From Planctomycetaceae bacterium (GTDB taxonomy: Bacteria > Planctomycetota > Planctomycetia > Planctomycetales > Planctomycetaceae): a stretch of DNA of 64,000 nucleotides. The position numbers were made by a program, and so were the translations under genes. Positions 1,192-60,521 of the stretch are shown here, piece by piece (within the stretch, counting starts at the first letter, position 1; each line of letters opens with the position of its first letter). Under the pieces are notes generated by a model that saw only the letters and a program-made list of their open reading frames with translations, was not told the origin of the DNA and searched no databases. Location: positions 1 to 64,000 of the forward strand of contig JAKFVC010000044.1 in assembly GCA_021732415.1 (NCBI GenBank), read 5' to 3'.

Positions 1192-1519
1192 AAAAGCCCG
1201 TTAGACCTGATCACTGCTGACGAAAGATGATCACAGATGACACATCGCAACCAATTATGCTAAAATCGCTTGTGGCCGTAACTGCCGTGGCAATAAAGCC
1301 TTGCGAAAATGCCGTTAAAGAAGCCCAGATTCTTGAATCTGGGTGAGCGGACTGAACAAGAGACTTGGACTCATTCAATCTGCGGATTGCGTGAGGCGCT
1401 GTCCTCTGTGAAAACTCGTGGAATCAATAGTGATTAAGCAGCAATTCAAATAGTGCATGTGACCGCGGTTCACGGTACACTGGTGAGGGTTGCGTTCATC
1501 ACCTGTTTGCGAGGCGCTC
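1192..1519. other. Intergenic region with a 9-bp hairpin, possible mobile-element end
   Basis: Non-coding stretch between the recombinase remnant and the DUF1552 gene. It contains a perfect hairpin at 1324-1343 (CCCAGATTC, 2-base centre, GAATCTGGG). Such imperfectly flanked subterminal hairpins occur at ends of IS200/IS605-type elements, and the neighbouring remnant is also mobile DNA, but no transposase is present and a transcription terminator is an alternative. The promoter of the downstream gene must lie in the AT-richer part (about 1360-1480); no box is clear enough to name. Confidence 0.35.
1324..1343. repeat. Perfect 9-bp hairpin
   Basis: CCCAGATTC and GAATCTGGG separated by two bases. 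It lies between a dead recombinase and a live gene and may be a terminator or a mobile-element end. Confidence 0.55.
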
Positions 1520-2842: not shown

Positions 2843-2973
2843 GATGGCCGCCCCGGCCGTCGTATTGCGCGAGTACCACCGCCACAAAGCTGCCGCACTC
2901 GTAGCCGTTTGACATGACTCACGATCGAGTTTTCCCGCCGATGAAAAGAAGACGGCCGAGGCGGCCATCCTAC
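2839..2973. repeat. Family A nested palindrome (REP-doublet-like), copy 1
   Basis: Left arm 2839-2861 is GTAG followed by the hairpin GATGGCCG-ccc-CGGCCGTC; right arm 2951-2973 is the inverse hairpin ending in CTAC. The spacer is about 89 bases of unrelated sequence. The T in GAT faces a G, a wobble kept in both arms. The left GTAG supplies the TAG stop of the preceding DUF1552 gene. Confidence 0.85.
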
Positions 2974-2999
2974 GAGGCCTACACGGCCTCGACACGAAA

Positions 3000-5411: not shown

Positions 5412-5432
5412 AATCGATTTCCGAGATGTTCC

Positions 5433-8081: not shown

Positions 8082-8160
8082 TCTGACTACGTGTGCAGGG
8101 AAATGAGTTAGAGTGTCAGTGCTTCTTCTCCAATACGGATCGTCGAGGTTAGGTGAAAGA

Positions 8161-8520
8161 ATGATGCGTCGTCGCGGTGTACTCATCGTCGTTGTTGCGT
8201 TGTACGCCGTAACTTGGGTCGGTGGATGGCGTTCACACGAACGTGAGATCGCTGCATTCGCTCGACATCGCTACGACTCAGCGATATCGATGAACGCCAA
8301 ACTTGCTCAGCACGCGTCTGAAAAAGGATATTCAATCAAGTTGCGTGCTGGTGGTCCGAGTAGCGGTGTCGAATGGTGCATCCCAATAGTTCCCGGTTTG
8401 TGTCTCGCTAATTCGTACTATGTAGTCGGACCGTTGTATGCCGCGGGTACGACAAAGCTTGTTCTCTTCTATGGAGTCGGTAGCATCACCGTGTGTAACT
8501 TGGCCGGCTGGTATGCATGA
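8161..8520 (+). CDS. Small hypothetical membrane-anchored protein
   Basis: A 119-residue protein starting MMRRRG. The ATG at 8161 follows GGTGAAAG, and residues about 6-22 form one transmembrane helix or uncleaved signal (VLIVVVALYAVTWVGGW). The rest is a small extracytoplasmic domain with two Cys (EWCIPIVPGLC) and a second hydrophobic stretch at the C-terminus (TTKLVLFYGVGSITVCNLAGW). I recognise no family. It is inserted between two cytochrome-type genes, with about 80 bases on each side. Confidence 0.6.
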   Translation: MMRRRGVLIVVVALYAVTWVGGWRSHEREIAAFARHRYDSAISMNAKLAQHASEKGYSIKLRAGGPSSGVEWCIPIVPGLCLANSYYVVGPLYAAGTTKLVLFYGVGSITVCNLAGWYA

Positions 8521-8601
8521 TACGCTGTTTGATAAGCGATATTAATACGACGCGCGTCGCGGTACGTTAGGTATAAGGCGAAAGTTAAGGTTCTTGATCT
8601 C

Positions 8602-10782: not shown

Positions 10783-10823
10783 GCATCACTGGTAGATACT
10801 TCCTACGGCAAGGGAACGACAGC

Positions 10824-12131
10824 ATGATTCCATCGTTGAGACTCACGCGTCGCGGTTTCATTCAAATGGGGGCTCTCGCGTTTGGCGGGAGCGTTCTGAG
10901 TGATCTGCTGAGAAGCGAAGCCCGAGCGGGTTCACCTGCCACCGAAAAGCGCAGCGTCATCTTGCTCGTGCAAAAGGGTGGCCCCAGTCAGTTGGATATG
11001 TGGGACATGAAGCCGGAAGCACCGGTTGAATACCGCGGTGAATTCTCGAGCATCGCGAGTAACATCCCCGGTTACCGTGTCTGCGAGTTGATGCCCAAGC
11101 TTGCTCAGATGTGCGACAAGCTGGCCATCTTGCGGACTGTGTATCACACGATGATGGACCACGGCGAAGGGATGCACATCGCGATGACCGGTTACGCGCC
11201 GATCCGGAATATTCGTGCCTCCGGCCAGCAGGCTCCCAGCTTGGGCAGCATCGTATCGAAGGAACTCGGCTGGCGCGCCGGACTGCCCGGTTACATTGCC
11301 GTGCAGAGGGAAATCGGGTTCGGCAAGTCGGCGTATCTGGGGATTGCCCACGATCCGTTTGAAACGTTCGGCTATCCCACGAGCGACAGTTTTCGCGTAC
11401 GCAATCTGGGGGCCAGCGACGGTGTGAATCCGACTCGTGAGGCCAACCGACGGGCGATGCTCGAGCGGTTCGATACGTTACGCCGAGATGCGGATACGTC
11501 GGGAGCCATCGGTGCGATGGACACGTTCCGGCGTCAGGCGTTCGACCTGGCCACCAGTCCGCAGGTGCAGGAGGCGTTCGATCTCAGTAAGGAAGATCCG
11601 GCGACTCGCGAACGGTATGGCCGTAAGAGCAATGCCGGCCAATCGATGTTGTTGGCTCGACGACTGGTCGAACGGGGGGCTCGCTTCGTCACAGTCGCGA
11701 CCGACTATGACAAACCGTGGGACTCGCACGATGACAATTTTACCGCCCATCGACTCAACATCCCGGGCTACGATCACACGGTCTCGGCGTTGCTCGAAGA
11801 TATGGAGACTCGGGGGCTGCTCGAGAACACGCTGGTCATTATTAGCGGAGAATTCGGTCGTACTCCGCGAATCAACGCCAAAGCCGGCCGCGATCACTGG
11901 CCCACGTGCTACACGACTGTCATGGTCGGTGGCGGCGTCAAACGCGGCATCATCCTGGGGACGAGCGATTCGCTGGGCGAGCTTCCGAAAGAGCGGCCCA
12001 TCAGCATTCAGGATGTGTACGCCACAATGTATCACCAGCTGGGAATCGACTACACGAAGAGCTATTTGAACGAAGCGAACCGGCCCGTTCAAATCATCAA
12101 TTACGGCGAGCCGATTACCGAGATTCTTTAG
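10824..12131 (+). CDS. DUF1501 exported protein (alkaline-phosphatase-like fold)
   Basis: A 435-residue protein with a Tat-type leader (LTRRGFIQMGALAFGGS). The family signature KGGPSQLDMWDMKPEAP follows, then a long helical middle and the C-terminal block ISGEFGRTPRINAKAGRDHWP with GGVKRG. DUF1501 belongs to the alkaline phosphatase/sulfatase superfamily by fold; the Asp and His residues in the GGPSQLD and GRDHW blocks are candidate metal ligands. No member is well characterised. It follows the DUF1549/DUF1553 gene by 41 bases and precedes a cytochrome-WD40 gene. A family B palindrome begins 6 bases after its stop. Confidence 0.92.
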   Translation: MIPSLRLTRRGFIQMGALAFGGSVLSDLLRSEARAGSPATEKRSVILLVQKGGPSQLDMWDMKPEAPVEYRGEFSSIASNIPGYRVCELMPKLAQMCDKLAILRTVYHTMMDHGEGMHIAMTGYAPIRNIRASGQQAPSLGSIVSKELGWRAGLPGYIAVQREIGFGKSAYLGIAHDPFETFGYPTSDSFRVRNLGASDGVNPTREANRRAMLERFDTLRRDADTSGAIGAMDTFRRQAFDLATSPQVQEAFDLSKEDPATRERYGRKSNAGQSMLLARRLVERGARFVTVATDYDKPWDSHDDNFTAHRLNIPGYDHTVSALLEDMETRGLLENTLVIISGEFGRTPRINAKAGRDHWPTCYTTVMVGGGVKRGIILGTSDSLGELPKERPISIQDVYATMYHQLGIDYTKSYLNEANRPVQIINYGEPITEIL

Positions 12132-12137
12132 AAAATA

Positions 12138-12192
12138 GTAGCCGCACTCGCCAGAGTGTGGGCTGACAGTGCGACCACCCACGTTCTGGCGA
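12138..12192. repeat. Family B nested palindrome, copy 1
   Basis: GTAG at 12138 starts the left hairpin CCGCACTC-gcca-GAGTGTGG; the right arm, read in reverse, is CCGCGTTC-gcca-GAACGTGG and ends in CTAC at 12192. Two stem positions change as pairs (A-T to G-C, C-G to T-A) while the GCCA loop stays. Confidence 0.85.
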
Positions 12193-12232
12193 ACGCGGCT
12201 ACAACTTCCCGCCCTCGAAGAATTGCGTTGGA

Positions 12233-14986
12233 ATGAAGCGGCTCATCAATTTTGCCATTTTGTGCGTTACGACGGCATTTCTTTCCGGTTCCAACTGCGC
12301 GGCCGCCGATGCCATCGGTATCGAAATTCCGCTCCTCACGAAGCCCGTCGAATTTGGAACTGACATCGCCCCGATCCTGCGCGCCAACTGCGTCGCCTGT
12401 CACAACGAGAAGAAGGCCAATGGCGGCCTCAATCTGGAATCACCCCAGACGATTCTCAAGGGAGGCGATCAAGGTCCAGCGGTGCTGCCTGGTAAAGGGA
12501 CCGAAAGCCTGCTGCTGAAAGTCGCTGCGCATCAGCAGGAGTCGGTCATGCCGCCGCCGGACAATACGGTCCAGGCGAAGCCCCTCACTCCCCTGCAACT
12601 GGGTCTGTTAAAGTTGTGGATTGATCAAGGAGCCACCGGCAGCATCTCCACAACTCGGAATATCCAATGGCAGCCGATGCCTGCGGGATACCAGCCGGCG
12701 CTGGCCGCGGCCGTGACCCCAGATGGCCAATACGCCGCGTGCAGTCGAGGCAATCGACTGTCGATCTATCATCTGGCTTCGGCCAGGCTGGCGACGACGT
12801 TGTTTGATCCCGTGTTGAGCAGTATGCCGAACGGATCCGATTCTCATGTCGCGCATCGTGATCTCGTGCGGTGCCTGGCGTTTGATGCGACCGGCGACCT
12901 TCTGGCATCGGGCAGTTATCGTGAAGTCAAGCTGTGGCGACGTCCGCGAGTGACCCGCACTGCTGAATGGGCTCATGACGCAGCGGTACAGACGGTGGCC
13001 GTGAGTGCGGATGCTCGCTGGGCCGCGACAGGCGATGAAAGTGGCCGGATCCGCATTTGGGAGATGGGCTCCGGAAAGTCGACCCAATCTTTCGTCGCTC
13101 ACCCCACCGCAGTGACGGGCATTGTCTTTTCGCTCGATGGAACGGCTGTGTTTTCCTGCAGTCTGGAAAAATCGCTCCGCGCGTGGAACGTCGCGACCGG
13201 TGAGTCGATCGGCAAGGGGGTTGAGACTCCGTCGCCGATTCAGGGCCTGGCATTGGTCAGCAAGGGCCAGTTGTTAGTGACGAGTGGTCAAGATGGGATC
13301 GCCCGAGTTTGGGACACGACTGCCGTACGCAGTGCCAGCGGCGAGGCCGCGAAGCCACTCCAGGAGATCAAAGCCCACGACAGTGCGATCACGGCGCTGG
13401 CATCGTTTCCTGGTGTTGAAAATGAATTCCTCACCGGCGGCGTAGACGGGCAGGTTCGGCGCTGGAATGCTCAGACCGGAATGCGATTGGCAGAGTTGAG
13501 GAACGAAGGGCCTGTGGTTGCGTTGGCGGTCAGTCGCGATGGCCGTCGCATCACGTCAGCTGGAGCTAACGTTGTCACTCTGTGGGGCGATGACGGCAAG
13601 GTGGTCGCCCAACTGAAGGACGACCCGCGTGAGACTGCGAAGATCGCGCGCCTGGAGGCCGAGGCCAAATTCACCAAGGCCGCGATCGCTCACGCCCAGC
13701 AAGACCTCAAGAGCTATGAGGGTCTGATTCGTATCGCGATGGTCAGGGTCGAAGATATCAAGAAGGCAGAAGAAGAGGTGACCAAAGCTCAAAAGACCCG
13801 CGACGAAAAGAAGGCCGCCCTGGAAAAGGTGAAGTCGGAAAATGGCAAGCCGGAAGCTGCGGAAAAAGCCCTGGCGGACGCTGAAACTGCAGTCATGGTG
13901 TTCATGACCGTGGTGGATCGAGCCAAGGCGATCTCCGAACGGACGGCTAAAGAATTGGCTGCTGCCGAGCAGGATGTAAAGGCCCGCGAGGAGTTGCTCA
14001 AGCAACAGGAAGCGAACTCGGCCGCGGCAGTGACAGCGTCCAAAGCGAACATCCCCGTGATCAAGTCTCTCGCTTTTTCGGCCGATGGTCGCCAACTGGC
14101 GATCGGCTGTGAGGCGGGCGCGATTCACTTCTATGACGCGGAATCAGGCAGTTGGTCCGAGTCGCGTAGCGAGCATCAAGGCGCGGTCCGCGCGATCTGT
14201 GCCACCTCAACGGGGCAACTCGTCACGGGTTCAGCAGACCGTAAGGCCATGGTGTGGAACGCGACCAGCGAATGGAAACTGGAGCGTGTTATTGGCGGGC
14301 AGAATCCACCAGACATGCTTGCCGATCGCGTGTTGTCGTTGGACTTCAGCCGCGACGGTCAACGACTGGTCACCGGCGGAGGCATTCCTTCGAGATCGGG
14401 TGAGCTCAAGATCTGGAACGTCGCCGACGGACATCTGATTCGCGAGATCAAGGATGCTCATAGCGAAACCATCTTTGCGGTCCGCTTCTCACCGGACGGC
14501 AAGCAACTGGCGTCGGCTGCTGGTGATCGGTTTATTAAGTTGATTAACACGGAAACCGGCGAAACGATTCGCCGCATGGCGGGTCATACGGGGCACGTTC
14601 TCGGCTTGAGTTGGAAATCGGATGGCAAGATGCTGATCAGCACGGGGGCAGACAATGTCCTCAAACTCTGGGATGTCGAACGAGGAGTCCCCCTGCGCAC
14701 GATGAAAGGCTCGACCTACCGCATCGGCGCCTACAAACGTGAAGTCACGGCCGCAGCCTTCATCGGCGACAGCGAGCAGATTCTTGCCGCCTCGGGAGAC
14801 GGCACCGTTCGTCTCCATCGCACGACCAGCGACGGCGACATTCTGACGTTCGCGGGTTCCAAGGGCTATCAGTTTTCGGTGGCCGCGACGCCCGATGGCA
14901 AGTACGTGATGGCGACCGGCAGCGACGGGACGCTGAGAATTTGGTCTGGCCACGAACAACAACCGAAGCAGACACTCAGCCCGTGA
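12233..14986 (+). CDS. Planctomycete cytochrome c domain protein with two WD40 blocks split by a coiled coil
   Basis: A 917-residue exported protein. A signal peptide (to about residue 25) is followed by a planctomycete cytochrome C domain with heme site CVACH (Cys53, Cys56, His57) and the typical GGLNLESPQTILKGGDQGPA. WD40 repeats occupy about residues 150-460 (LASGSYREVKLWRRP, AATGDESGRIRIWEM, FLTGGVDGQVRRWNA) and about 605-905 (LVTGSADRKAMVWNA, LISTGADNVLKLWDV, MATGSDGTLRIWSG). Between them, about 465-605, is a highly charged Ala/Lys/Glu-rich coiled coil. It could therefore be an extended periplasmic scaffold holding a heme domain and two propellers. It follows the DUF1501 gene on the same strand; the leader lies beyond a family B palindrome. 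Confidence 0.9.
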   Translation: MKRLINFAILCVTTAFLSGSNCAAADAIGIEIPLLTKPVEFGTDIAPILRANCVACHNEKKANGGLNLESPQTILKGGDQGPAVLPGKGTESLLLKVAAHQQESVMPPPDNTVQAKPLTPLQLGLLKLWIDQGATGSISTTRNIQWQPMPAGYQPALAAAVTPDGQYAACSRGNRLSIYHLASARLATTLFDPVLSSMPNGSDSHVAHRDLVRCLAFDATGDLLASGSYREVKLWRRPRVTRTAEWAHDAAVQTVAVSADARWAATGDESGRIRIWEMGSGKSTQSFVAHPTAVTGIVFSLDGTAVFSCSLEKSLRAWNVATGESIGKGVETPSPIQGLALVSKGQLLVTSGQDGIARVWDTTAVRSASGEAAKPLQEIKAHDSAITALASFPGVENEFLTGGVDGQVRRWNAQTGMRLAELRNEGPVVALAVSRDGRRITSAGANVVTLWGDDGKVVAQLKDDPRETAKIARLEAEAKFTKAAIAHAQQDLKSYEGLIRIAMVRVEDIKKAEEEVTKAQKTRDEKKAALEKVKSENGKPEAAEKALADAETAVMVFMTVVDRAKAISERTAKELAAAEQDVKAREELLKQQEANSAAAVTASKANIPVIKSLAFSADGRQLAIGCEAGAIHFYDAESGSWSESRSEHQGAVRAICATSTGQLVTGSADRKAMVWNATSEWKLERVIGGQNPPDMLADRVLSLDFSRDGQRLVTGGGIPSRSGELKIWNVADGHLIREIKDAHSETIFAVRFSPDGKQLASAAGDRFIKLINTETGETIRRMAGHTGHVLGLSWKSDGKMLISTGADNVLKLWDVERGVPLRTMKGSTYRIGAYKREVTAAAFIGDSEQILAASGDGTVRLHRTTSDGDILTFAGSKGYQFSVAATPDGKYVMATGSDGTLRIWSGHEQQPKQTLSP

Positions 14987-15001
14987 GTCCAAAACGCTCC
15001 T

Positions 15002-15066
15002 GTAGCCTGACTCTCTGAGTCGGGTCGTCTTTGAGATCATGCTCCCGACTCCGAGAGTCAGATTAC
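15002..15066. repeat. Family C nested palindrome, copy 1
   Basis: GTAG at 15002, then CCTGACTC-tct-GAGTCGGG, a 20-base spacer, and the inverse arm ending in a slightly decayed TTAC. It begins 16 bases after a stop codon. The downstream tail AGGCTCGGCAGAAGCCT resembles the tail of copy 2 at 42074-42090, so the element extends past the right arm. Confidence 0.8.
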
Positions 15067-15531
15067 AGGCTCGGCAGAAGCCTCGCCCTCCCATCCGCCA
15101 AGTTGGGCATGCGCGCACAGACGTCAAACTCATCGCTCTAGTTTGACTGATCCCTACAGTCTGGAACATCGCGCCAACCGGTCCCGCCTTCGTCTGCAGA
15201 TTTCTGCCACCTTCATTTTATATACGATTTGTTCGTACACATCGACCTTATGTCGAATAGGCGGACAGCCTGTCTTTTTTTAAGTTCGATCGCCCATTTA
15301 GTCAAGCCTCAATTTCGTGTCATCCGATGTCGTTCTGTATTCACCTGCAGATGAGGCACATGAACACGCTCGTGGCCCCTCGGCGGATGTGGACGACTGC
15401 AATCGAGACTGAACTTCGCACCTGAGAGCTGAAACGCCTCAACAGTTTATTGCTTCAGTCATGAAGAATTGTCCCGCCGCCAACGGACTTTTTCGATGAT
15501 TGAAGCACCGCGGCGATCGACGCCGAACGAA

Positions 15532-15581
<50 letters not shown>

Positions 15582-15655
15582 GCGTCATGTTCTGACGTGG
15601 GCTTCTTTCTCTTCGACTTGGGCCATGTTGTTGATTAATTCGCGAGGAACTGCCA

Positions 15656-18600
15656 GTGCTTATTAAACGCTTTTTCGACCACATCAGCGCCCTGTTCCCC
15701 CCTCACAAAAAGAGCCGTTCTGGCAAGCAGAACCGCTCTCCAGTGGGCGCTGTCGAGCGACTCGAAGAGCGGGTCGTCCTGACAGTTGATACCTTTACCT
15801 GGGACGGCGGTGGTTCCGATACGAACTGGATGACTGCCGAAAACTGGGACACTGACGTGATCCCGACGGAGGGATCCAATCTTGTTTTTCCAGATGGCTT
15901 TGCGGGTTCCTCGTCCAATGACTTTCCGGACAACACAAACTTTAACGACATCACCATTGCGAGTGCCGGCTACTCCCTCAGCGGGAATGTCATTGATCTG
16001 GATGGCGATCTCTTCGAGACGGCCACTGGGGTTTCGGCAATTTCGTTTGGGATCGAACTGCAATCGGGCAGAACTGTCAATGTCGTATCGGGCGGCCAGT
16101 TGGCGCTGAATGGTAACATCGACGACGGAGCCGCTAGTTACTCGCTTTCGAAGACAGGCGCCGGGACACTGACGCTTCCGACGGCCAACTCCTACGATGG
16201 TGGGACGATGGTCGATGGAGGTTTGCTCGAGATAAGCAACTACCTGGCATTGGGAACAGGCGCGGTGTCGATTAACGACTCATCGTCGTTCGCGCTGAAC
16301 GACGACATCGACGTCTCGAATCCACTGACTTTAACGGGACTCCCGAACGCCGGTTACAATAAACTGCTCAACGAGTCCGGAAATAACACTTACAGTGGAT
16401 CGATCGCGATCACCGGTCCCAACAATGAATCCATTGAAGTCGGTAGCGGGCAGACCCTGACTCTGACTGGTTCGCTCAGCGGCAGCCGGGATCTCGACAA
16501 GAACGGTAGCGGAACCCTGGATCTCGATGGCACCAGCACACACACCGGCCATCTAAACGTCTATGACGGCACCCTGCTAGTCAACGGAGATTATTCGACT
16601 AGTTCGCTGATTTTTGTTGACGGTACCCTCGGTGGGACTGGGACGGTTTCGGCCGTGGAGATCTCGAATATCGGCACATTGGCTCCGGGTAACTCACCGG
16701 GCATCTTGCACACAGGTGATCTGACTTTTAGCAGCAGCGGTTCAATATATAGTGTGCAAATTAATGGGACAACGGTCGGTTCCGATTACGACCAGACCGA
16801 TGCCACCGGCAGCATCACCCTGGCGGACGCCACGCTGAGTATCTCACTGGGATTTCTGCCTGACGTGGGGGACACGTTTGAAATTATCAACAATGAGGGA
16901 TCCGGCGCCGTCAACGGTACATTTAATGGCCTTCCGGAAGGGGCCACCTTTACCATAGGTAATCAGCCATTTGAGATTACCTATGTCGGCGGTGATAGCA
17001 ATGACGTGTACTTGACGGCTCTGATGCGAGTCGATGTGTGGACGGGAAATGGCGGCGATAGCAATTGGACAACCGATACCAACTGGCTGTCTGGCGTGGC
17101 GCCTCTGCCTGGGGACCAACTGGTGTTCCCCAGCGGTTCGGCCGATTTTACGACAATCAATGATTTCTCTGCAGGTACTGAGTTTGACTCGATTGTTATC
17201 GCCAGTGCCAACTATTCGCTGATTGGTAACCCAATCCTAATCGATCACGGAATCTCGGCCAGCTACTCAGCTGGCACGTCAACCATCGATTTCAACACGA
17301 CTCTGGGGCTTCCCCAGCCCGTCTTTGTTCAAGACGGGGGGCAATTGACGATTGGCGGTGCGATAACCGATGGGACGAACACTTTCCTTCTCCAGAAGAC
17401 CGGTGGCGGCACGCTGACGCTAAGCGCTTCGAATAGCTACGACGGAGGTACGCTCGTCAGCGGCGGGTTTGTCGAAGTGACGGACGGTTCAGCTCTGGGG
17501 ACCAGCTCGGTATTCGTTGGCGATCTGGCGTCATTGATGTTGAGTAACGATATTTCGATCAACAACTCGATGACCCTGGACGGCCGCACGGCAGGGGGAT
17601 TTAGCAAACTTGTCGTTGGTTCGGGCGTGTACCAGATCCACGGAAATATTGCCCTCACCTCAAACAACCAGTCGTTCGAGGTGCCGAGCGGAGGATCGTT
17701 GAGTATTGATAGCGTCATCTCCGGCTCTGTCGATTTCGACAAGAATGGCGCGGGCCAATTAGTCCTGTCCGGCACGAGCACGCACACCGGGCGCATCAAC
17801 GTTGGAAATGGCTCACTGTTTGTCGATGGCGATACGTCGTCGAGTGACCTCATGTTCGTGGATGGAATTCTGGGCGGCACAGGCAAAGTCGGAGCTTTGT
17901 CGATCTCATCGATCGGCACGCTGGCCCCGGGGGATTTATCGCCAGGCATTCTCGATACGGGAGATGTCTCGCTGGTGAACGATTCGATCTATAGTGTAGA
18001 ACTTCTGGGGAGAACGGTTGATTCTGAATACGACCAGTTGAATGTCACCGGTGGCGTTAATCTGGGGACTCAACATGGATTTTTGACAGTCTCGTTGGGT
18101 TTCAGGCCCACGGTGGGTGACGTCTTTACAATCATCAATAATGACGACACCGATGGAGTCATCGGCTATTTCCTGGGCCTGCCGGAAGGCACCACGTTTG
18201 ATATCGGCAACGTCACATTCCGGATCAGCTATCGTGCGGGAACCAATGATAATGACGTGACCCTGACGGTCGCGAATATCTTGGACACCTGGGATGGCGG
18301 CGGAGGTGATAACAACTGGACCACGGCGGCCAACTGGGTGGGGGACATCGCACCACAGGGTGGTGATAGCCTCGTATTCCCCGTGGGGGCTCCACGACAG
18401 ACCACGACTAACGACTTCGACTCAGGCACGTGGTTTGACGGGATTACGATTGCCGATCCGAACTATGTGCTCGGCGGCAACGCGATCGAATTGGATGGCG
18501 ATATTGCGGCAACGTATTCAGCCGGCGTGGCGCTCATCAATCTCAATATGGAACTTGGTTCAAACGTTGTGATTGACGTCGCGGCTGGTGGTGTGTTGGC

Positions 18601-21600
18601 TCTCAATGGAGTGATTTCTGAGGGGCCGCACAGTACCGTCACGAAAACGAACGCTGGCCAGTTGACGCTGGCCGGGGCCAATACCTTTGGGAACGGAGTG
18701 AATGTTAATGGTGGAACACTGCTGATCAGCAATGGAAATGCCCTGGGCAGCGGTAACACAGTTGTCGATTCCGGGGCCAGTCTGCTACTGACCAATAATA
18801 TTACTGTGAGCAATTCCATTGATCTGCGCGGAGTAACGGCTCCGGGAATGAGCAAGGTCGAGAATGTCTCTGGCGACAATGAGCTCCAGGGGCTCATCTC
18901 GCTCTACTTTAATAATCAATCATTTGATGTGCCCAGCGGCACGACATTGACTCTGTCGAATGCGATCAGTGGGTCAGTTGATTGGGATAAAAATGGGCCC
19001 GGTATCCTGAGCCTGACTGGTACCAGCACGCAGACGGGGAATGTCAATGTTGGCGATGGAGTTCTACTCGTTGATGGTGATATCTCTGCCAGTCACCAGG
19101 TCTTCGTTGACGGCCGGCTCAGTGGATCGGGTACGGTCCCGACCGTCATTATTTCCAATATTGGCACATTGGCGCCAGGCAGCACGCTCAACTCGTCCTC
19201 AAAGATTCTCCATACCGGCGATCTGTCATTCATGAGTAGTGGATCGACATACAGTGTTGGGATCTACAGCCAAGGACTAGGTCCGGCAGATTTCGATCAG
19301 ACCGTTGTCACTGGCACGGTTGATCTGGCGAGCGCGACGCTCAACGTTTCGTTGAACTATACGCCGACCATCGGTAATGAGATTCCGATTATCGAAAACG
19401 AGGGCAGCGGCGCAATTTCCAACACATTTTCGGGACTGCCCGAAGGATCGCTGCTGACGTTTGGCAACGTGACGATGCAGATCAGCTATGTGGGGGGCAT
19501 AGGCAGTAATGATGTCGTCTTGACCGTAACCGACGTGACCTATACCTGGGACGGCGGCGGAACCGATGACAACTGGAGCACGGCTGCGAACTGGGTGGGC
19601 GACGTGGTCCCCACGCCGGGCTCCAATCTGGTATTTCCGAATGGTGCCGCGCGACAGACCAACTTTAACGACATGATCGGGAGGGATTACCACTCTATCA
19701 CGATTGCGTCTGCGGGCTACGATCTTTTTGGTCACCCGATTGTTTTAGACTCTGGAATCACCACGACCTACGGTTCTGGCAGCTCGCGTTATGATATTGA
19801 CACCTATTCCATGGTCGACCAGACCATTGACGTGGCTGCGGGCGGAACGCTGAAATTCGACAGTCAATTCTCTGATGACTTGCTCACGGCAGGTTTGATC
19901 AAGACCGGTGCGGGCACTCTGATTCTCTCCGGTGGCAACTCGTTCGATGGGGGCATGACTGTCAGCGATGGCTTGCTGATCGTGTCGAATGGTTTGGCGC
20001 TTGGTAGTGCAAACGCCACGATCTCCGATGAGGCCTCACTGGAGGTTAGAGACGGAATTACGATACCCAATGGGATCACTTTCAATGGGCTGGCGACCAG
20101 CGGCACAGTCAAGCTGGTGAGCAGCGGCGGTGATAACGTCGTGCAGGGGGATGTCTCCTTTAACGTCAATAATAATTCGATCGAAGTCACTGCTGGCTCG
20201 ACCTTGACTCTGTCTGGTGCCCTTTCTGGCCATCTCGATCTGGGCAAAGAGGGTGCGGGGACACTGATCCTGTCGGGAACCAGTACGTATTCGGGAGAGA
20301 TGGGTGTTCTGGTTGGAACGGTCCTGGTGAATGGATCTTTGGCAGACTGTCGACTCATATACGACAATAGTGTGCTGGGCGGCTCGGGCACGGTGTCGAC
20401 CGTTGTCGTGTCGAATGTCGGTACGCTGACGCCGGGCAGTGCGCTGGGCAATTCTCCGGCTATTTTAAGCACGGGCAACCTCACGTTCAACGCAGGCGCG
20501 ACGTACAAAGTCGACCTGGATGGTACGACGGAGGGAACTGGCTACGACCAGGCGAATGTGACCGGCAGCGTCGTTCTCAACAATGCGACTCTGGTGGCCT
20601 CGTTGGGCTTTGCAGCAACGGTCGGCGATACTTACACAATCATCGATAATGATGACAGCGATGCGGTTTCGGGCACGTTCTCCGGGTTGTCCGAAGGGGC
20701 GACATTCACGGTCGGCAATGCGACGATGTCGATCAGTTATACCGGAGGAACCAACAGCAACGATGTCGTCCTGACTGTCGTCGACGTGACATACACTTGG
20801 GACGGTGGGGGTGGAGATAACAATTGGACGACCGCCCAAAACTGGGTGAGTGACCTGGTTCCGACACCCGGCTCAAATCTGGTCTTCCCGGCTGGCGCTG
20901 CGCAGAAATCCAATGCGAATGATTTCCCGATCGACACCCCTTTCGGAGACATTACGATTGCCGCCAACGGTTATGGGCTGAGTGGCAGCCGGGTGGCACT
21001 GGATGGAGACCTGTTCTACACCGGGGGCGCCGCCACAGTTGGGCAACTCTATTTTGATATCAACTTGCAACATGACACGACGGTTGAAGTTGATCCAGGA
21101 ACCGGACTGCAGATTTATGGAGCGATCTCCGGCGGCAGCCATGGATTGACTTTAGATGGTGGCGGAGCACTTGTTCTTGGAGGCAATTTTTCAAACACGT
21201 ACACCGGCACCACGACTCTTAATGCAGGCAGCTTGAGTCTGACGAAGGACTCGGGAGCGATCGCGATCGCCGGCGACTTGACTGTGAATGCAGGGGTGAC
21301 TGCGTATGAGTACCACGACGATCAGATCGCTGATTCGTCGGATGTCACGCTGACCGGGGCCAGCCTCTACTTAATGAATCACAATGACACCGTCGGCTCT
21401 TTGACACTGACGGGCGGATATGCGCAGTCAGGTGCCGGGACCTTGACGATCGCCTCGGGTGGATTCATCACGACGAACGCGGATTCGCAGGTCTCTGTGA
21501 TTGGCGGCACCCTGGCATTTGCCGGTCCAAACAATACCTTCACGGTCGCCCAGGGAACCACTCTGGGCGGAAGAGACCTGGTGGTCGAGGCCGCCGTTAC

Positions 21601-24600
21601 CTCTGGGATGAACATCATTAAGGACGGTGCCGGTAAGATGCTGTTGTATGGTGCCAACTCCTATTCGGGTGGCACAAATATTAATTCCGGGATTCTAGAG
21701 ATTCAAAATAGTGCCGGTGCAGGCACCGGAGTCGTGAATATCCTGGGCACCGGGACGCTCGAAGTTTCCGGTAACATCACGGTGAATAATCCGATCTTGA
21801 TTACGACGACCAGTGCCGCCATTCATAGTACGGGCGGCGTCAACACCTTCGGGGACAACGTCACAATTCTCGCAGACACCACTTTAAACGTGGATGCGGG
21901 CGCGTATCTCGCATTTTCCGGAACGATTTCCGATTCGAGCGAGACACACAGTTTGATCAAGACGGGTCTCGGCACGCTCGTGCTGAATGGGACCAATGAC
22001 TATGAGGGCATTACGACGGTCGTCGGTACGTTGGTGGTGAATGGCTCGATTGCCACGAATCAGCACGTGTATGTTAACGGTACACTCGGGGGTTCAGGAA
22101 CCGTTCCCGCCGTGTCGTTGGCATCCACGGCGACGCTCGCCCCGGGAAATTCTCCCGGGATTCTGAACACCAGGAACCTCGCATTTATTATCGGGGCCAC
22201 CTATAGCGTAGAGATTGACGGAAGCTCCGTGGGTACTGAATACGATCAAACGAATGTTACGGGCACCGTTGATCTGGACAACGCAACGCTGTCGTTGTCG
22301 CTGGGATACACGCCGACAATTGGTGACACATTTACAATCATTGACAATGATGATTTCGATCCAATTACTGGCACCTTTAATGGGCTGTCTGAAGGCTCGA
22401 CCTTGACGATCGGGAACGTCACGTTCACGATCAGCTATCAGGGGGGCACCAATAATAATGATGTTGTGTTGACGGTGACTGATGTCACTTTTGTCTGGTC
22501 GGGTGCCAGCCCTGACGACAGCTTCTGGACCAATCCGGACAACTGGGTAGGCGGGCTGGTGCCGACCCCTGGTTCTAATCTGATCTTCCCGAGTAACCCT
22601 GATAATACTGAGAGCGTCGACAATTTGGCCTCTGGCATGGTCTTCCATTCGATTACCGTTGCCGGCAGTAACTACGACATTTACGGAAATGATATCGCCC
22701 TCGCGAACGGGTTGACGACGCTCTATTCGTCCGGGACTTCCAGATTCGAACTCAACACGCAGTTGCTCGCCAACACGGCGATCGACGTGGCGAGTGGTGG
22801 CACGCTGAATTTCGGCGGTGCGATCTCCGGTGCATTCAGCCTGTCTAAGACAGGGCAAGGCACGTTAGATCTGACTGCGGATAATTCTTATACCGGCGTT
22901 ACTAATGTCAGTGCGGGCAAATTACTGGCGAATGCATTCATTACGTCGAGCAGCCACGTTTATGTCGACGGCACTTTAGGCGGCTTATCTGCTGTTCCTG
23001 CAGTCTCGATTTCGTCGACCGGCACATTGTCACCGGGCAACTCACCAGCCATTCTGAATACGGGTGACTTGGATTTTAGCAACAATTCGAGCTACATCGT
23101 TGAACTGGATGGAACCACCGCCGGTGATGATTACGATCAGACCAAGGTAACCGGTACCGTCGATCTGACGGGAGCTATTCTGGATGTTTCTCTGGGCTAT
23201 AGTCCGACGAGTGGTGACTCGTGGACAATCATTGACAACGACGATAGCGATCCGGTCGTCGGTACCTTCCTCGGATTGCCCGAAGGGAGCACCCTCGCAG
23301 TTGATACCTACACATTTGTCATCACGTACGTTGGCGGTACCGAACACAATGACGTCGTCTTGATCTCGAATCAGGCCCCAACGGCTGTCGGCCTGAGTAG
23401 CGCCAGCGTCCCCGAAAACGAGCCTTCTGGCACTGTGGTTGGTACTTTCAACACGACCGATCCGGATGTGGGAGATACGTTTGCCTACACCCTCGTAAGT
23501 GGCTCTGGAGATGACGATAACACGTCGTATACGATCGACAGCACCGGCCAACTCCTGACTGCTGCGAGTTTTGATCGTGAGACGAAAGAGTTCTACTCGA
23601 TCCTTGTCCGTAGCACCGATGTAGGCGGACTGTATGTCGAGCAACAGTTCACGATTACTGTATTGCCGGTGAATGACAATGCCCCGGTGTTTACCTCGTC
23701 GGCAACATTCGACGTTGAGGAAAACACTTCCACAGTGGGCACCGTTGCCGCCAGCGACGCCGATCTGCCGGCACAGACTGTCACCTACAGCATTACTGGT
23801 GGAACTGATAAGGCGTTGTTCCACATTGATTCTGACAGTGGAGCATTGACCTTCATCACATCACCCGACTATGAGTTGCCGGGCAATGCGAATGCGGACA
23901 ATGTTTATCTGGTCGATGTGACGGCTGACGATGGCTTAGGTCAGACGACGGTTCAGCATCTCTCCGTCACGGTGACACCGGTGAATGACAGCTTCCCGAT
24001 CTTCACGTCAGCCACTTTATTTAATGTGCCAGAGAACACGACCCTCGTCGGGACGATGTCGGCCACCGATGACGATCTCCCGGCTCAGACGCTCACGTAC
24101 AGTCTGGTGCCGAATCCGGACTCGGCGCTGTTTACGATCGACCCTGCGACGGGAGTCTTGGAATTCGTCAGTGCTCCAAACTATGAATCTCCGTCGGACA
24201 GCGACGCGAATAACACCTATTTTCTGTTGATTAGCGTTGCCGATGGAATTAGTTCGCTTCAGAATCAATTCATCGAGGTCATCGTAACTCCGGTGAATGA
24301 ATTTGCGCCGGCCTTTAGTTCGTCGGCCACATTTAATGTCCCTGAGAACACCACGGCAGTTGGGACAGTTTCGACGACCGATGCCGATTTGCCGGCTCAG
24401 TCGGTGACTTATGGCCTGGGTGGTGCCGATGCCGCGTTGTTCACAATCAATGCGACCTCAGGAGTCCTGGCGTTTATCACGGCGCCCGACTACGAACTGC
24501 CGCCTGGCGCGAACAGCGACAATGTGTATCACGTCGATGTGATCGCCAACGACAACGCGGGCCGTACGTCGACCCAGAACGTGACCGTCACAGTTACTCC

Positions 24601-26032
24601 GATGAATGACAATGCTCCCATCTTTACTTCCCTGGCGGCGGCGATCATTCCCGAAAACTCAACCATCGTTGAAACAGTCCATGCTACAGATGCAGATTTT
24701 CCCGCGCAATCGTTGATCTACAGCATCACCGGCGGTCTCGATTCTGCATTGTTCCATATTGATTCTGCGACTGGCGTTCTGTCGTTCATCACAGCTCCGG
24801 ACTACGAAGTGCCCACCGACAACGGCACGAACAATTCGTACTTTGTGGACATTACCGCCAGTGACAATGCGGGCCAGTCCACGGTGCAGCACATCGCCAT
24901 CACCGTGACACCACTCAACGACAACGCTCCGTTCTTCACCTCTCCCGGTGCGTTCAACGTTGCCGAAAACGCGACATCCGTGGGGACAGTTGCCGCCACC
25001 GACGCCGATAGGCCGGCTCAACCGATCACGTACAGCATCACAGGAGGAGCCGATGAGACGCTGTTCACAATCAATCCTACGACTGGCGTGCTTACCTTTA
25101 ATACTGCCCCCAATTATGAGTCACCAGCCGATGACTTAACGGACAATGTTTATCACGTCGATGTGACGGCGAACGACAACTCGGGACTGACGACGATTCA
25201 GCTGATCGCGGTCACTGTAACGCCAGTCAATGACAACGCCCCGGTCTTTAGCTCGGCGACGAGCTTTACCATCGCCGAGAACACGACGATTGCCGGGACG
25301 GTGTCTGCGACGGATGCCGATTTGCCTGCTCAGGCAATGGCTTACAGCATCACAGGTGGAGTCGATCGAACACTCTTTAGTATTAATCCGAATACTGGCG
25401 TCTTGTCGTTCCTGACCGCACCGGATTACGAACATCCCGCAGATGTCGGAGCTGACAATTCCTATGAAGTTCAAGTCACGGCAAATGATGAAGCAGGGAT
25501 GTCGACGGCTCAAGATGTGACGGTGAATATCACAAATGCCGTCGAAGACCCCGTTATCACCTTGAATCCAGTCGATGGGTCGTATTACCTCGATAAAGAG
25601 AACGCGTACGTTGATCCGACCGCTCAGTATCAGGCTGATGTCACTGAAACTGATTATTCTGTAGCCGTGCTGACGGTGTCGATTACTGCCAATCGCCAGT
25701 CGAAGGACGTGCTGGGCATCAATCCTCAGGGCAATAGACCAGGCCAGATAAGTCTGAAGGGGAAAAGCGTGTTCTTCGGTGGAGTGGTCATCGGCACCTT
25801 CCAGGGTGGCTCGAAATCTCAACCTGATCTGGTTATCACGTTTAATTCATCTGCTTCGGAGGCGGCGGTCCAGGCGCTGGTGAAACGCATCACGTTCTTC
25901 GCGAAGAACGAGCGTCGGGCGTCACATGATCCCCGGACGGTTCAAATGCAGATCACGAATGTCAGTGGCCATAATAGCAACGCGGCGACTCGGCAGATCA
26001 ATATCGACGGCACGATGGCGCGAGGCCGGTAG
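15656..26032 (+). CDS. Giant LEPR-XLL-type surface protein: six autotransporter-like beta modules, seven cadherin repeats
   Basis: A 3,458-residue protein (about 350 kDa). The GTG start at 15656 follows GAGGAA with good spacing. There is no classical signal peptide; LEERVVL at residues 36-42 resembles the LEPR-XLL N-terminal signal of very large planctomycete proteins. Six modules each open with a WDGGGxDNNWTTAxNW motif (about residues 47, 460, 877, 1295, 1712 and 2278) and close with LPEGxxFxxGNxxxxISYxGG. Inside are autotransporter-associated beta-strand repeats (KTGAGTLxLSGxNSYxGG), predicting right-handed beta-helices. Modules 1-4 repeat every 1,239-1,254 bases; module 5 is longer and module 6 shorter. 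From about 2571 to 3290 run seven cadherin-like repeats (NDNAPVF, PENTT, DADLPAQ), which usually bind calcium. The last 165 residues (ITFNSSASEAAVQALVKRITF) form a cap seen in similar proteins. The likely role is adhesion or surface layer. It converges on a beta-helix gene. Confidence 0.93.
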   Translation: MLIKRFFDHISALFPPHKKSRSGKQNRSPVGAVERLEERVVLTVDTFTWDGGGSDTNWMTAENWDTDVIPTEGSNLVFPDGFAGSSSNDFPDNTNFNDITIASAGYSLSGNVIDLDGDLFETATGVSAISFGIELQSGRTVNVVSGGQLALNGNIDDGAASYSLSKTGAGTLTLPTANSYDGGTMVDGGLLEISNYLALGTGAVSINDSSSFALNDDIDVSNPLTLTGLPNAGYNKLLNESGNNTYSGSIAITGPNNESIEVGSGQTLTLTGSLSGSRDLDKNGSGTLDLDGTSTHTGHLNVYDGTLLVNGDYSTSSLIFVDGTLGGTGTVSAVEISNIGTLAPGNSPGILHTGDLTFSSSGSIYSVQINGTTVGSDYDQTDATGSITLADATLSISLGFLPDVGDTFEIINNEGSGAVNGTFNGLPEGATFTIGNQPFEITYVGGDSNDVYLTALMRVDVWTGNGGDSNWTTDTNWLSGVAPLPGDQLVFPSGSADFTTINDFSAGTEFDSIVIASANYSLIGNPILIDHGISASYSAGTSTIDFNTTLGLPQPVFVQDGGQLTIGGAITDGTNTFLLQKTGGGTLTLSASNSYDGGTLVSGGFVEVTDGSALGTSSVFVGDLASLMLSNDISINNSMTLDGRTAGGFSKLVVGSGVYQIHGNIALTSNNQSFEVPSGGSLSIDSVISGSVDFDKNGAGQLVLSGTSTHTGRINVGNGSLFVDGDTSSSDLMFVDGILGGTGKVGALSISSIGTLAPGDLSPGILDTGDVSLVNDSIYSVELLGRTVDSEYDQLNVTGGVNLGTQHGFLTVSLGFRPTVGDVFTIINNDDTDGVIGYFLGLPEGTTFDIGNVTFRISYRAGTNDNDVTLTVANILDTWDGGGGDNNWTTAANWVGDIAPQGGDSLVFPVGAPRQTTTNDFDSGTWFDGITIADPNYVLGGNAIELDGDIAATYSAGVALINLNMELGSNVVIDVAAGGVLALNGVISEGPHSTVTKTNAGQLTLAGANTFGNGVNVNGGTLLISNGNALGSGNTVVDSGASLLLTNNITVSNSIDLRGVTAPGMSKVENVSGDNELQGLISLYFNNQSFDVPSGTTLTLSNAISGSVDWDKNGPGILSLTGTSTQTGNVNVGDGVLLVDGDISASHQVFVDGRLSGSGTVPTVIISNIGTLAPGSTLNSSSKILHTGDLSFMSSGSTYSVGIYSQGLGPADFDQTVVTGTVDLASATLNVSLNYTPTIGNEIPIIENEGSGAISNTFSGLPEGSLLTFGNVTMQISYVGGIGSNDVVLTVTDVTYTWDGGGTDDNWSTAANWVGDVVPTPGSNLVFPNGAARQTNFNDMIGRDYHSITIASAGYDLFGHPIVLDSGITTTYGSGSSRYDIDTYSMVDQTIDVAAGGTLKFDSQFSDDLLTAGLIKTGAGTLILSGGNSFDGGMTVSDGLLIVSNGLALGSANATISDEASLEVRDGITIPNGITFNGLATSGTVKLVSSGGDNVVQGDVSFNVNNNSIEVTAGSTLTLSGALSGHLDLGKEGAGTLILSGTSTYSGEMGVLVGTVLVNGSLADCRLIYDNSVLGGSGTVSTVVVSNVGTLTPGSALGNSPAILSTGNLTFNAGATYKVDLDGTTEGTGYDQANVTGSVVLNNATLVASLGFAATVGDTYTIIDNDDSDAVSGTFSGLSEGATFTVGNATMSISYTGGTNSNDVVLTVVDVTYTWDGGGGDNNWTTAQNWVSDLVPTPGSNLVFPAGAAQKSNANDFPIDTPFGDITIAANGYGLSGSRVALDGDLFYTGGAATVGQLYFDINLQHDTTVEVDPGTGLQIYGAISGGSHGLTLDGGGALVLGGNFSNTYTGTTTLNAGSLSLTKDSGAIAIAGDLTVNAGVTAYEYHDDQIADSSDVTLTGASLYLMNHNDTVGSLTLTGGYAQSGAGTLTIASGGFITTNADSQVSVIGGTLAFAGPNNTFTVAQGTTLGGRDLVVEAAVTSGMNIIKDGAGKMLLYGANSYSGGTNINSGILEIQNSAGAGTGVVNILGTGTLEVSGNITVNNPILITTTSAAIHSTGGVNTFGDNVTILADTTLNVDAGAYLAFSGTISDSSETHSLIKTGLGTLVLNGTNDYEGITTVVGTLVVNGSIATNQHVYVNGTLGGSGTVPAVSLASTATLAPGNSPGILNTRNLAFIIGATYSVEIDGSSVGTEYDQTNVTGTVDLDNATLSLSLGYTPTIGDTFTIIDNDDFDPITGTFNGLSEGSTLTIGNVTFTISYQGGTNNNDVVLTVTDVTFVWSGASPDDSFWTNPDNWVGGLVPTPGSNLIFPSNPDNTESVDNLASGMVFHSITVAGSNYDIYGNDIALANGLTTLYSSGTSRFELNTQLLANTAIDVASGGTLNFGGAISGAFSLSKTGQGTLDLTADNSYTGVTNVSAGKLLANAFITSSSHVYVDGTLGGLSAVPAVSISSTGTLSPGNSPAILNTGDLDFSNNSSYIVELDGTTAGDDYDQTKVTGTVDLTGAILDVSLGYSPTSGDSWTIIDNDDSDPVVGTFLGLPEGSTLAVDTYTFVITYVGGTEHNDVVLISNQAPTAVGLSSASVPENEPSGTVVGTFNTTDPDVGDTFAYTLVSGSGDDDNTSYTIDSTGQLLTAASFDRETKEFYSILVRSTDVGGLYVEQQFTITVLPVNDNAPVFTSSATFDVEENTSTVGTVAASDADLPAQTVTYSITGGTDKALFHIDSDSGALTFITSPDYELPGNANADNVYLVDVTADDGLGQTTVQHLSVTVTPVNDSFPIFTSATLFNVPENTTLVGTMSATDDDLPAQTLTYSLVPNPDSALFTIDPATGVLEFVSAPNYESPSDSDANNTYFLLISVADGISSLQNQFIEVIVTPVNEFAPAFSSSATFNVPENTTAVGTVSTTDADLPAQSVTYGLGGADAALFTINATSGVLAFITAPDYELPPGANSDNVYHVDVIANDNAGRTSTQNVTVTVTPMNDNAPIFTSLAAAIIPENSTIVETVHATDADFPAQSLIYSITGGLDSALFHIDSATGVLSFITAPDYEVPTDNGTNNSYFVDITASDNAGQSTVQHIAITVTPLNDNAPFFTSPGAFNVAENATSVGTVAATDADRPAQPITYSITGGADETLFTINPTTGVLTFNTAPNYESPADDLTDNVYHVDVTANDNSGLTTIQLIAVTVTPVNDNAPVFSSATSFTIAENTTIAGTVSATDADLPAQAMAYSITGGVDRTLFSINPNTGVLSFLTAPDYEHPADVGADNSYEVQVTANDEAGMSTAQDVTVNITNAVEDPVITLNPVDGSYYLDKENAYVDPTAQYQADVTETDYSVAVLTVSITANRQSKDVLGINPQGNRPGQISLKGKSVFFGGVVIGTFQGGSKSQPDLVITFNSSASEAAVQALVKRITFFAKNERRASHDPRTVQMQITNVSGHNSNAATRQINIDGTMARGR

Positions 26033-26113: not shown

Positions 26114-28174
26114 CTATTTGGCGGCCGTTTCCCCATAGAGCGGAATTCGGCCGTCGACCCCCACGCCCCACGACTTTGTATTCAGAGGCAGTGCACCGGC
26201 ATCTGGCAGGCCGGCGTCGGCAGTGCGTAAGACGTCGGGCCATTCGGAAGGCAGAGCCACACCGGAGTTGACCGCCTGACTAGTAGATTTTAGCCCGAGA
26301 TCCATTTTGGGCAACTCGGCGAGCGTCAAGTTCACGAACGCGGGGTCAGCCCAATGGTCCAGGGTTGTCCAACCTGGCTCAAAGAACTGCTTGCTGTCGA
26401 TGAAGAGCTTTGAAGTACGAAACTTCGCGAAGGGATCCAGGTTACCGGCGGAACTTGGTGCGAAGCTCCACAGAAGATTTCCCCCTTCGCGTAAGTTGGA
26501 CGCAACTCCCATACCCATGCCTGGCGATCCTTCCAGTTGGACTAAGATGTTATTAAACACATGACGTTCGGTTTTACTGATTCCTACCGTACCGAGACCG
26601 AACAGGAAGTAGTCACGGAATACCGAGGCTCGCCGGATGATGGTGTTGTGATAGAACCGCATGACGGGATAGATCGGGCTGCCGTGGTCGCCTACCAGGA
26701 CTCCTTCGTTATGCAGATATTCACCAGTTGGTTCGTCTTTCGTGGGCATTGCATAGTAGACCCCGGCCCGTGGATCGAGGACGTTGCGATAGACGAACAC
26801 TCCGGTGTTCGGATCGTGATCGACTGGTGATTCGTCCTTCTCCAGTTCATGTTGTTGAAACATTCCCAGACAGGCGCCAATACGGTTCTGATAGACGAAC
26901 ATCGAGTGATTGCGTCGCTTGGGGCCAAACTCGAGACCATCGTCGTTGAAGTTGTCGACGTAGTTGTGATGGAACTGAAGATTCTTCACGAAGCGGAGGA
27001 AGGCGCAATCGTGGTCGTCGGTAAATTCGCACCAGGCGAATTCAATGTTCTCATTCTCTGGCTGGCCGTTTTGGAAAATGACCTGGTAGGAAGCCGTCCC
27101 GCGATACTTCATGTGGCCGCGTCCTGTCCAGGGAGCCGCCAGTCCGCGAAAGGCGGAGTGGGTGACGCGAATCTCCTTTGAGGCGCTCACCAGCAAGGCC
27201 GGGAAGCCGCCGAAGATCGTCAGATGGTCAAGATCGATGTTCTCGGAACCGTAGAGGTTGATCATGGGGCTGCCGGTGGCACCGCGGAGAACCAGGTCGC
27301 GAATCTGCACATGCTTGATACCACTGATGCGCAGTACTTCGCCGCCGAATCCCAAGGCCACAATCAGTGGCATTTTGCGCGGGTCAGTCTCGCCGCGATA
27401 GGCGCGATCTCCCAAGCCTGCCAGTCGATTATGACTGAGCCGGATGTGGACGCGTCCCGTTTCCCGATTGAACCACAGACCGGGACCGCAGTAGGGGCCG
27501 GCCTCGCGATCGTTACCCTTGGCTGCGGCCGGCCAAAACTCCGTTGGCGCACGCAAGTCGCCGATGGTGCGATATCCATGTAGCGGAATCATCGAGTCGG
27601 CAAAGTTCCCCAGGGCGATCGGACGTTCCGTTTCGATGCCCCACATCGGTTCCCAGGCAGTTGGCAAAAACTGATGCGGCACTTGGCGATCGTCAATCTG
27701 GGGATAAGTCTTGGTCGAGACGTACTCTCCCTCGGCACCCCCTTCGAATGGCTGCCAGCTTGTGGCGGGACTGTCGCAGAATTCACGCAATCCACCATCC
27801 AGGATGGAGATCTCGCCCGGATAGCCGCAAATGGTAATTGGTTTTGCGGCCGTTCCCGAATGGCGAAGGAACGGACGCTCGTAATACGTGCCGCCGCGCA
27901 GATAGAGCGTATCACCTGGTTTGAGTTGCCGGGTGGCGTGAGCAAGGGTTTTCCAAGGATGCAGTTGGCTGCCATCTTGGGCATCATCTCCTTTGCTCGT
28001 CGAATCGACGAAGAATGCTGGCCCTGGAGCGAGCGGTCGAGTCGATGCCGTCGGCAGCGGTCGCATCGGTGGATGAGAAAGGAGCTTGCCCTCTGCCGCT
28101 TTGATTTGGTTGGCCTGCCCCAGCAGGGCGACCAGCGAAAGGGTAACAACTTGTACAAGAGTTGAGCACGACAT
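26114..28174 (-). CDS. Secreted right-handed parallel beta-helix protein
   Basis: A 686-residue protein. The ATG at 28174 follows CGGAG and starts a clear signal peptide (TLVQVVTLSLVALLGQANQIKA); an in-frame ATG 52 codons upstream would bury it. The mature N-terminus has FFVDSTSKGDDAQDGSQL, then PWKTLAHATRQLKPGDTLYL and GGTYYERP, the entry motif of DUF1565/pectate-lyase-like beta-helix proteins. The middle contains rung-like repeats (NIDLDHLTIFGGFPALLVSA, NLQFHHNYVDNFNDDGLEFG) typical of parallel beta-helix repeats. It probably acts on or binds polysaccharide outside the cytoplasm; catalytic residues cannot be assigned. It converges on the giant surface gene. Confidence 0.85.
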   Translation of the reverse strand: MSCSTLVQVVTLSLVALLGQANQIKAAEGKLLSHPPMRPLPTASTRPLAPGPAFFVDSTSKGDDAQDGSQLHPWKTLAHATRQLKPGDTLYLRGGTYYERPFLRHSGTAAKPITICGYPGEISILDGGLREFCDSPATSWQPFEGGAEGEYVSTKTYPQIDDRQVPHQFLPTAWEPMWGIETERPIALGNFADSMIPLHGYRTIGDLRAPTEFWPAAAKGNDREAGPYCGPGLWFNRETGRVHIRLSHNRLAGLGDRAYRGETDPRKMPLIVALGFGGEVLRISGIKHVQIRDLVLRGATGSPMINLYGSENIDLDHLTIFGGFPALLVSASKEIRVTHSAFRGLAAPWTGRGHMKYRGTASYQVIFQNGQPENENIEFAWCEFTDDHDCAFLRFVKNLQFHHNYVDNFNDDGLEFGPKRRNHSMFVYQNRIGACLGMFQQHELEKDESPVDHDPNTGVFVYRNVLDPRAGVYYAMPTKDEPTGEYLHNEGVLVGDHGSPIYPVMRFYHNTIIRRASVFRDYFLFGLGTVGISKTERHVFNNILVQLEGSPGMGMGVASNLREGGNLLWSFAPSSAGNLDPFAKFRTSKLFIDSKQFFEPGWTTLDHWADPAFVNLTLAELPKMDLGLKSTSQAVNSGVALPSEWPDVLRTADAGLPDAGALPLNTKSWGVGVDGRIPLYGETAAK

Positions 28175-28508
28175 CTTGAAACTCCGGGAGTTGCGAGGCG
28201 GAGACAGATCGAAAGAGAGGTCGGTTATTTGACGGTGCAAAATTTCATTCACCCGCATAAGGGGCTGCATCGAGATGGAAATCCTGTCCCGTTTAAGTGT
28301 GATCGTACGATGAATGACGGCGAAAACCAAGCTTTGCGATTCGGGAAGCGGGAAAGAGCTGCAATTCGCGATTTCCCGTCGGGCGACGTCATCGACTCAA
28401 GGAATTGTGCTGGACGTCGCAACTACTTGACACGAATCTGCACCACCGTACAATCCCGGAGCGTGCCGACGCCGATCCGGCATCGGAGCAATAGAAAGAA
28501 CAGGTTCA
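28175..28508. other. Divergent intergenic region
   Basis: About 330 bases between the beta-helix gene (minus) and the acidic small protein (plus). It must hold both promoters. No tRNA, repeat or clear sigma-70 box was found; the candidate TTGACG near 28227 lacks a properly spaced -10 element. Confidence 0.5.
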
Positions 28509-41848: not shown

Positions 41849-42003
41849 CGAGATCTCTGTTTGAAAGCCAGCAGGCAGGAAGGCTCGACGCGCCATCAGA
41901 AACAGCAGGTCGATGTAAAGGAAAGAATTTCGAGGAACCAACATATCAATGGGTGTTGATTTTAGTCATAATAGAGACGATATTCAAGGTCTTCTGTGGC
42001 TCC

Positions 42004-42090
42004 GTAGCCCGACTCTCTGAGTCGGGTAAACTAATCTGCGGTCGAATGCTCCCGACTCAGAGAGTCGGGCTACAGGCTCGGCTGACGCCT
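42004..42090. repeat. Family C nested palindrome, copy 2, with conserved tail
   Basis: GTAG, CCCGACTC-tct-GAGTCGGG, 25-base spacer, CCCGACTC-aga-GAGTCGGG, CTAC at 42070-42073, then the tail AGGCTCGGCTGACGCCT shared with copy 1. It lies between divergent genes, 58 bases or less from the DUF1501 start, so it must sit in a promoter or leader region. Confidence 0.85.
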
Positions 42091-42130
42091 TGCAGATGTG
42101 TGTTGACGTGACTTGTCCAGGGAGTAGTTG

Positions 42131-60498: not shown

Positions 60499-60521
60499 CC
60501 CGACTCGGAGAGTCAGGCTAC
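60499..60521. repeat. Family C solo right arm, copy 3
   Basis: A single arm CCCGACTC-gga-GAGTCAGG followed by CTAC. The matching left arm is missing, so it is a half-element, 21 bases before the DUF1501 start. Confidence 0.7.

Follow-up and report, generated by a model that had tools for sequence, protein, structure and literature searches.

The 3,458-residue product of a single open frame with a GTG start (positions 15656..26032, forward strand) is a real, handsome and ordinary member of the known class of planctomycete giant surface proteins. We consider it likely that it is exported and displayed on the surface as a protein of the LExRxLL type, most likely an adhesin or an envelope fibre. 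The gene lies in a window of 64,000 nucleotides from a member of the Planctomycetaceae, which is the whole stretch of DNA that was analysed. Inspection of the frame, pairwise BLASTP and Pfam family PF00028 confirmed the three elements of the first-pass annotation, namely the 3,458-residue frame, the six modules and the seven cadherin domains. Its description of a modular surface protein is also borne out, by a basic stretch with LEERVVLT, then PATR beta-helix modules, then cadherins. A Shine-Dalgarno-like GAGGAA can be read 6 nt 5′ of the GTG (15644..15649, forward strand). A perfect array of 15.7 GCT triplets (15535..15581, forward strand), 75-121 nt 5′ of the start codon, presumably belongs to the 5′ region of the gene; such a repeat could vary in length and possibly affect expression. 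The GC content of the gene (54.4%) differs too little from that of the window (56.6%) to argue for transfer.

Six modules follow one another on the forward strand: module 1 (413 aa, 15797..17035), module 2 (417 aa, 17036..18286), module 3 (419 aa, 18287..19543), module 4 (417 aa, 19544..20794), module 5 (566 aa, 20795..22492) and module 6 (292 aa, 876 nt, 22493..23368). All six are homologous, every pair scoring 145-337 bits (E 1e-44 to 1e-116, pairwise BLASTP), whereas 200 shuffled modules scored 29 bits at best. Each consists of a Trp-rich opening, a PATR body and a closing segment of ~140 aa, with mean pairwise identity of 0.58 and 0.55 at the two ends versus about 0.4 in the middle. Measured in frame, the module starts are spaced by 1239, 1251, 1257, 1251 and 1698 nt; the first of these agrees with the earlier measurement and the other four earlier values (1252, 1254, 1250 and 1699) were off by 1-3 nt. 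The near-constant module size that had been claimed holds for four of the six modules, but not for module 5, which is of a long type, nor for module 6, which has a truncated body and had been omitted. Module 5 carries ~150 aa of extra beta-helix, common to the long modules of a relative in another genus (G004, see below).

The end motifs had been described as the same in every module. A closer look shows that they are homologous throughout, but not identical. The opening reads TWDGGGSDTNW in module 1, VWTGNGGDSNW in module 2, TWDGGGGDNNW in module 3, TWDGGGTDDNW in module 4 and VWSGASPDDSFW in module 6, so that WDGGG is replaced by WTGNGG in module 2 and by WSGASP in module 6; positions W2, G4, W11, N16, W17, P23, G26, L29, F31 and P32 are invariant. 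The closing LPEG, found as LPEG/NDV in module 1, reads LSEG in modules 4 and 5. A reading of LPEG as a sortase LPXTG signal was rejected, because the motif is an internal loop of the closing segment at all six occurrences and the protein ends in ...INIDGTMARGR. Sortase-anchored proteins, in contrast, have a C-terminal LPXTG, a hydrophobic stretch and a basic tail, a combination that the giant protein lacks. The opening of module 1 (15818-15904) also matches PF14828 (Amnionless), just over the cut-off and over 29 aa only; this may reflect a beta-helix cap motif common with the animal protein, or chance.

Ahead of the modules, an N-terminal basic leader (15656..15796, forward strand) contains LEERVVLT (15761-15784) after its basic stretch, which resembles the planctomycete LExRxLL surface-protein signal. 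The longer form RRLxxExLExRxLLA is regarded as a probable export signal in Rhodopirellula, and among the 10 longest proteins of Tuwongella, 8 have a motif of this kind (PMC8567305). Planctomycetes commonly have giant genes, which point to adhesion and in some cases have been tied to it (PMC5177795). Where clusters of huge bacterial proteins fall into the cell-wall/membrane class, most of them include cadherin or DUF11 domains (PMC11573180). The present protein shares with the LExRxLL giants of Rhodopirellula and Tuwongella its huge size and its repetitive adhesion-type domains, and has an N-terminal motif resembling theirs; unlike them, it combines a six-module PATR array with seven cadherins and a C-terminal domain typical of its genus. 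Given the presumed role of the leader motif and the links between giant genes and adhesion, export and display as a long rod are most likely. The case for export is made by analogy, since neither a classical Sec signal peptide nor an outer-membrane anchor was identified in the giant protein. Similarly, 'adhesin' is a guess from architecture, as no ligand-binding site was found in the protein, and it may instead have a scaffold, matrix or enzyme-bearing role. The cut-off of Pfam PF07595, the family of this N-terminal motif, was reached nowhere in the host genome. The T9SS SprA model found no match anywhere, and its controls were likewise without a match.

The bodies of the modules belong to a recognisable family. 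PF12951 (PATR) matches 12 stretches (E 5e-52, 174 bits against a curated cut-off of 27), as does TIGR02601 (E 1e-51, 171.8 bits, cut-off 19.85). Modelling of the fold, which had been proposed as a check, gave a confident AlphaFold prediction for modules 3 and 4 in tandem, an all-beta solenoid with a mean pLDDT of 88.8; the angle between the two modules is uncertain because the pTM is 0.66. The best PDB folds found by Foldseek are a metagenomic beta-helix and the passengers of autotransporters (SepA, EspC, Ag43, Hbp), with Ssp aligned at 27% identity over 209 columns and 3.4 A, and at the sequence level the module profile retrieves Ssp, IcsA and Fusolisin. Each module is a PATR/TIGR02601 beta-helix, with the Trp-rich opening on one side of it and the closing segment on the other.

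PATR turns and a right-handed beta-helix are shared with ShdA, IcsA and Ssp and are typical of passengers, which raises the question of a type V autotransporter secreted through its own barrel. However, the helix of the giant protein is split into self-contained modules by the opening and closing segments, no barrel is present among its Pfam matches down to E 1, and its C-terminus is occupied by a ~157-aa domain. Membership of type Va was rejected for want of a C-terminal translocator barrel, and self-secretion of this kind is scarcely credible. In another reading the helix would be pectin-lyase-like, the six modules catalytic or polysaccharide-binding, and the whole a giant secreted enzyme instead of a structural adhesin. 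Planctomycetes degrade sulfated polysaccharides, and there are structural matches to beta-helix enzymes of PL6 and GH55, which are weak and not significant by themselves. Against this, no enzyme family of Pfam or NCBIfam was found, except for autotransporter peptidase models (AtpSerPepEprS and fusolisin), which were rejected as they score far below cut-off and reflect PATR turns only. Moreover, structural residue types (Gly, Leu, Val, Asn, Trp, Pro) make up most of the invariant positions of the modules, and polar ones are few. We therefore regard an enzymatic rod as unlikely, and prefer the exported adhesin or fibre.

A further possibility is a length-variable surface rod of the 'periscope' type, in which the number of modules changes by recombination between repeats. 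The giant protein resembles periscope proteins in being a rod of tandem modules, presumably at the surface; its six modules are homologous and four are of similar size, and variation is known among PATR proteins, ShdA for example having 4-6 repeats (PMC9704523). What defines the periscope class, however, is tandem repeats of high identity, and variation within it correlates with the identity of the repeats at the DNA level (PMC9704523). The identity between modules of the giant protein is far too low for this, at 41-52% (aa) and 51-55% (nt) between pairs, and the longest exact nucleotide run between modules is 9-14 nt. The best windows of 40 codons agree at 0.63-0.70, and agreement at fourfold sites is 0.23-0.38, versus 0.28-0.29 expected from composition alone. 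Fourfold sites between modules are saturated and synonymous similarity is entirely lost. There is therefore no sign of recent gene conversion between modules of the giant gene in exact matches, 40-codon windows or fourfold sites, and little substrate for homologous recombination. The cadherin repeats are somewhat closer relatives of each other, with DNA identities of up to 69%, and likewise include no near-identical pair. The first-pass annotation had read the regular design as predicting recombination between modules and variation in length among strains, and had suggested an alignment of module nucleotides for recent homogenisation; the alignment revealed none, and neither part of the prediction is supported for this gene. 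An even spacing of modules is not by itself a sign of ongoing recombination.

The closest relative offers evidence on both sides of the periscope reading. It is a protein of 4,574 aa from another genus of the same family (G004 C7, L036 / L041; JAKFWA010000054.1, MAG D4_Bin_5), which likewise has an LExRxLL-type leader, six opening-PATR-closing modules (409-693 aa) and a stalk with cadherin-like repeats. Its modules are 43-54% identical (aa) to those of the giant protein. The two loci differ in that they are not syntenic, and that the relative ends in PKD-like/cadherin-like and RTX calcium-binding repeats instead of the ~157-aa domain. They differ also in the recent duplication of some modules of the relative. 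Modules 2 and 4 of G004 are 81% identical (nt), with an exact run of 94 nt and a fourfold agreement of 0.81, and the module tree firmly joins G2/G4 and G1/G3 of this protein, whereas the modules of the window are deep and largely unresolved. Module turnover thus happens in the family. The same number of modules and unrelated module DNA in relatives, the pattern that had been set against the recombination prediction, was found in part: the number is again six, but some G004 modules are recently duplicated or converted. On balance a periscope rod is very unlikely here. In the preferred reading, the modules of the giant protein would have arisen by old tandem duplication and diverged one by one, and would no longer form a recombining array; the gene appears to have been left undisturbed for long while turnover occurs in the family. 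Single opening-plus-closing units are found in Planctomycetota, Acidobacteria, Verrucomicrobia and other phyla (public genomes and fetched loci). Tandem arrays of units are rare in this sample, with 6 in the giant protein and in G004, 3 in L092 and 2-3 in a few others.

No orthologue of the giant gene was found in three congeners; as the assemblies of all three are fragmented, with two of them only 85-87% complete, its absence elsewhere in their genomes is provisional. In the nearest congener (G002), the left neighbours are 88-96% identical and most of the right neighbours 83-98%, on different contigs. Both contigs run past the junction into other genes, and neither flanking gene adjoins such a giant gene. 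In G001, too, the left block runs on into other sequence. The giant gene is thus located at a break in synteny. REP/REPIN-like elements, in the form of inverted pairs of CTGTAGCCTGACTCTCNGAGTCGGG, occur at 15000-15068, 42002-42075 and 60499-60523, one pair lying in the interval that separates the giant gene from the conserved gene upstream of it. Exact matches to the CTGTAGCCTGACTCTCNGAGTCGGG core number 76 in the host genome, 97 in G002, 0 in G001 and 1 in G003. REP-associated (Y1) transposases also occur; one of them is flanked by REP copies in G002 (C294). Downstream, the reverse strand encodes a 738-aa protein (26114-28330) with no Pfam match, found at 83% in G002 and at about 60% in another genus. 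Planctomycete gene sets of PSCyt/PSD/DUF1501/DUF1552 flank the giant gene at 1490-14986 and 37194-43552.

Beyond the modules, PF00028 matches seven stretches (E 1e-69, 231 bits against a cut-off of 28.8), giving seven cadherin domains with a period of 102-104 aa (23369..25525, forward strand). The modules had been described as capped by these repeats; the domains are there, but the protein continues into a C-terminal domain of ~157 aa (25526..26023, forward strand). This domain matches no Pfam or NCBIfam family and has no credible sequence match in the PDB. Ribosomal L1 (PDB profile, E 0.004) was judged a chance match and rejected as a homologue. A single-sequence AlphaFold model of the domain, with a pLDDT of 38, was not used.

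The host genome has 50 places that match the domain; the three congeners have 56, 47 and 29. Besides the giant protein, at least 34 proteins of the host genome carry it and, among the best-scoring copies, which do not include all of the weakest, the last copy lies 1-20 aa before the stop in 34 of 35 carriers examined. It is similarly terminal, within 26 aa, in 22/22 frames with a definable end in the congeners. The domain also forms tandem arrays of 2-6 copies (G000 C326, C106, C99; L177, L175), the last copy still being terminal. Other genera of the family usually have fewer copies, with 0-8 places in every one of 18 genomes tested. There the domain is missing from 96 of 134 genomes, although a few have up to 28 copies, which often adjoin one another within a single frame. 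Outside the genus the domain is mostly internal, being terminal in 4 of 14 genes by our own count. Moreover, LExRxLL is found near the N-terminus in 22 of 30 domain carriers with complete 5′ frames, versus 2 of 118 control frames, and most of the remaining carriers have visible leader variants such as FEDRLLLT or LEDRLLLA. This pairing of leader motif and terminal domain is the pattern expected of a sorting or anchoring signal, and makes the domain a candidate for sorting, anchoring or capping. That it is a true sorting/anchoring domain, which together with the leader on at least a few dozen proteins per genome in this genus would mark the cargo of a planctomycete pathway for surface display not yet described, is a tentative proposal that we think less likely than not. 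A similar picture would result from a simple structural cap, or from a protein family that expanded while keeping both ends.

Taken together, the parts suggest how the exported surface protein may be built. The N-terminal basic/LExRxLL leader would direct passage across the envelope, the six right-handed beta-solenoids would be linked into a long stiff rod, and the seven cadherin domains, of a calcium-binding type, would form a further rod or stalk. The ~157-aa domain, common to dozens of exported-looking proteins of the genus, would then hold or finish the C-terminus at the cell surface by sorting, anchoring or capping. The giant protein is in this respect one more well-resolved example of how planctomycete giant surface proteins are constructed, and what most deserves further work is its C-terminal domain. 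To our knowledge, it is not understood how planctomycetes place megadalton-scale proteins on their surface. If the C-terminal domain is a sorting or anchoring tag, it would provide a handle on this placement, with dozens of cargo proteins.
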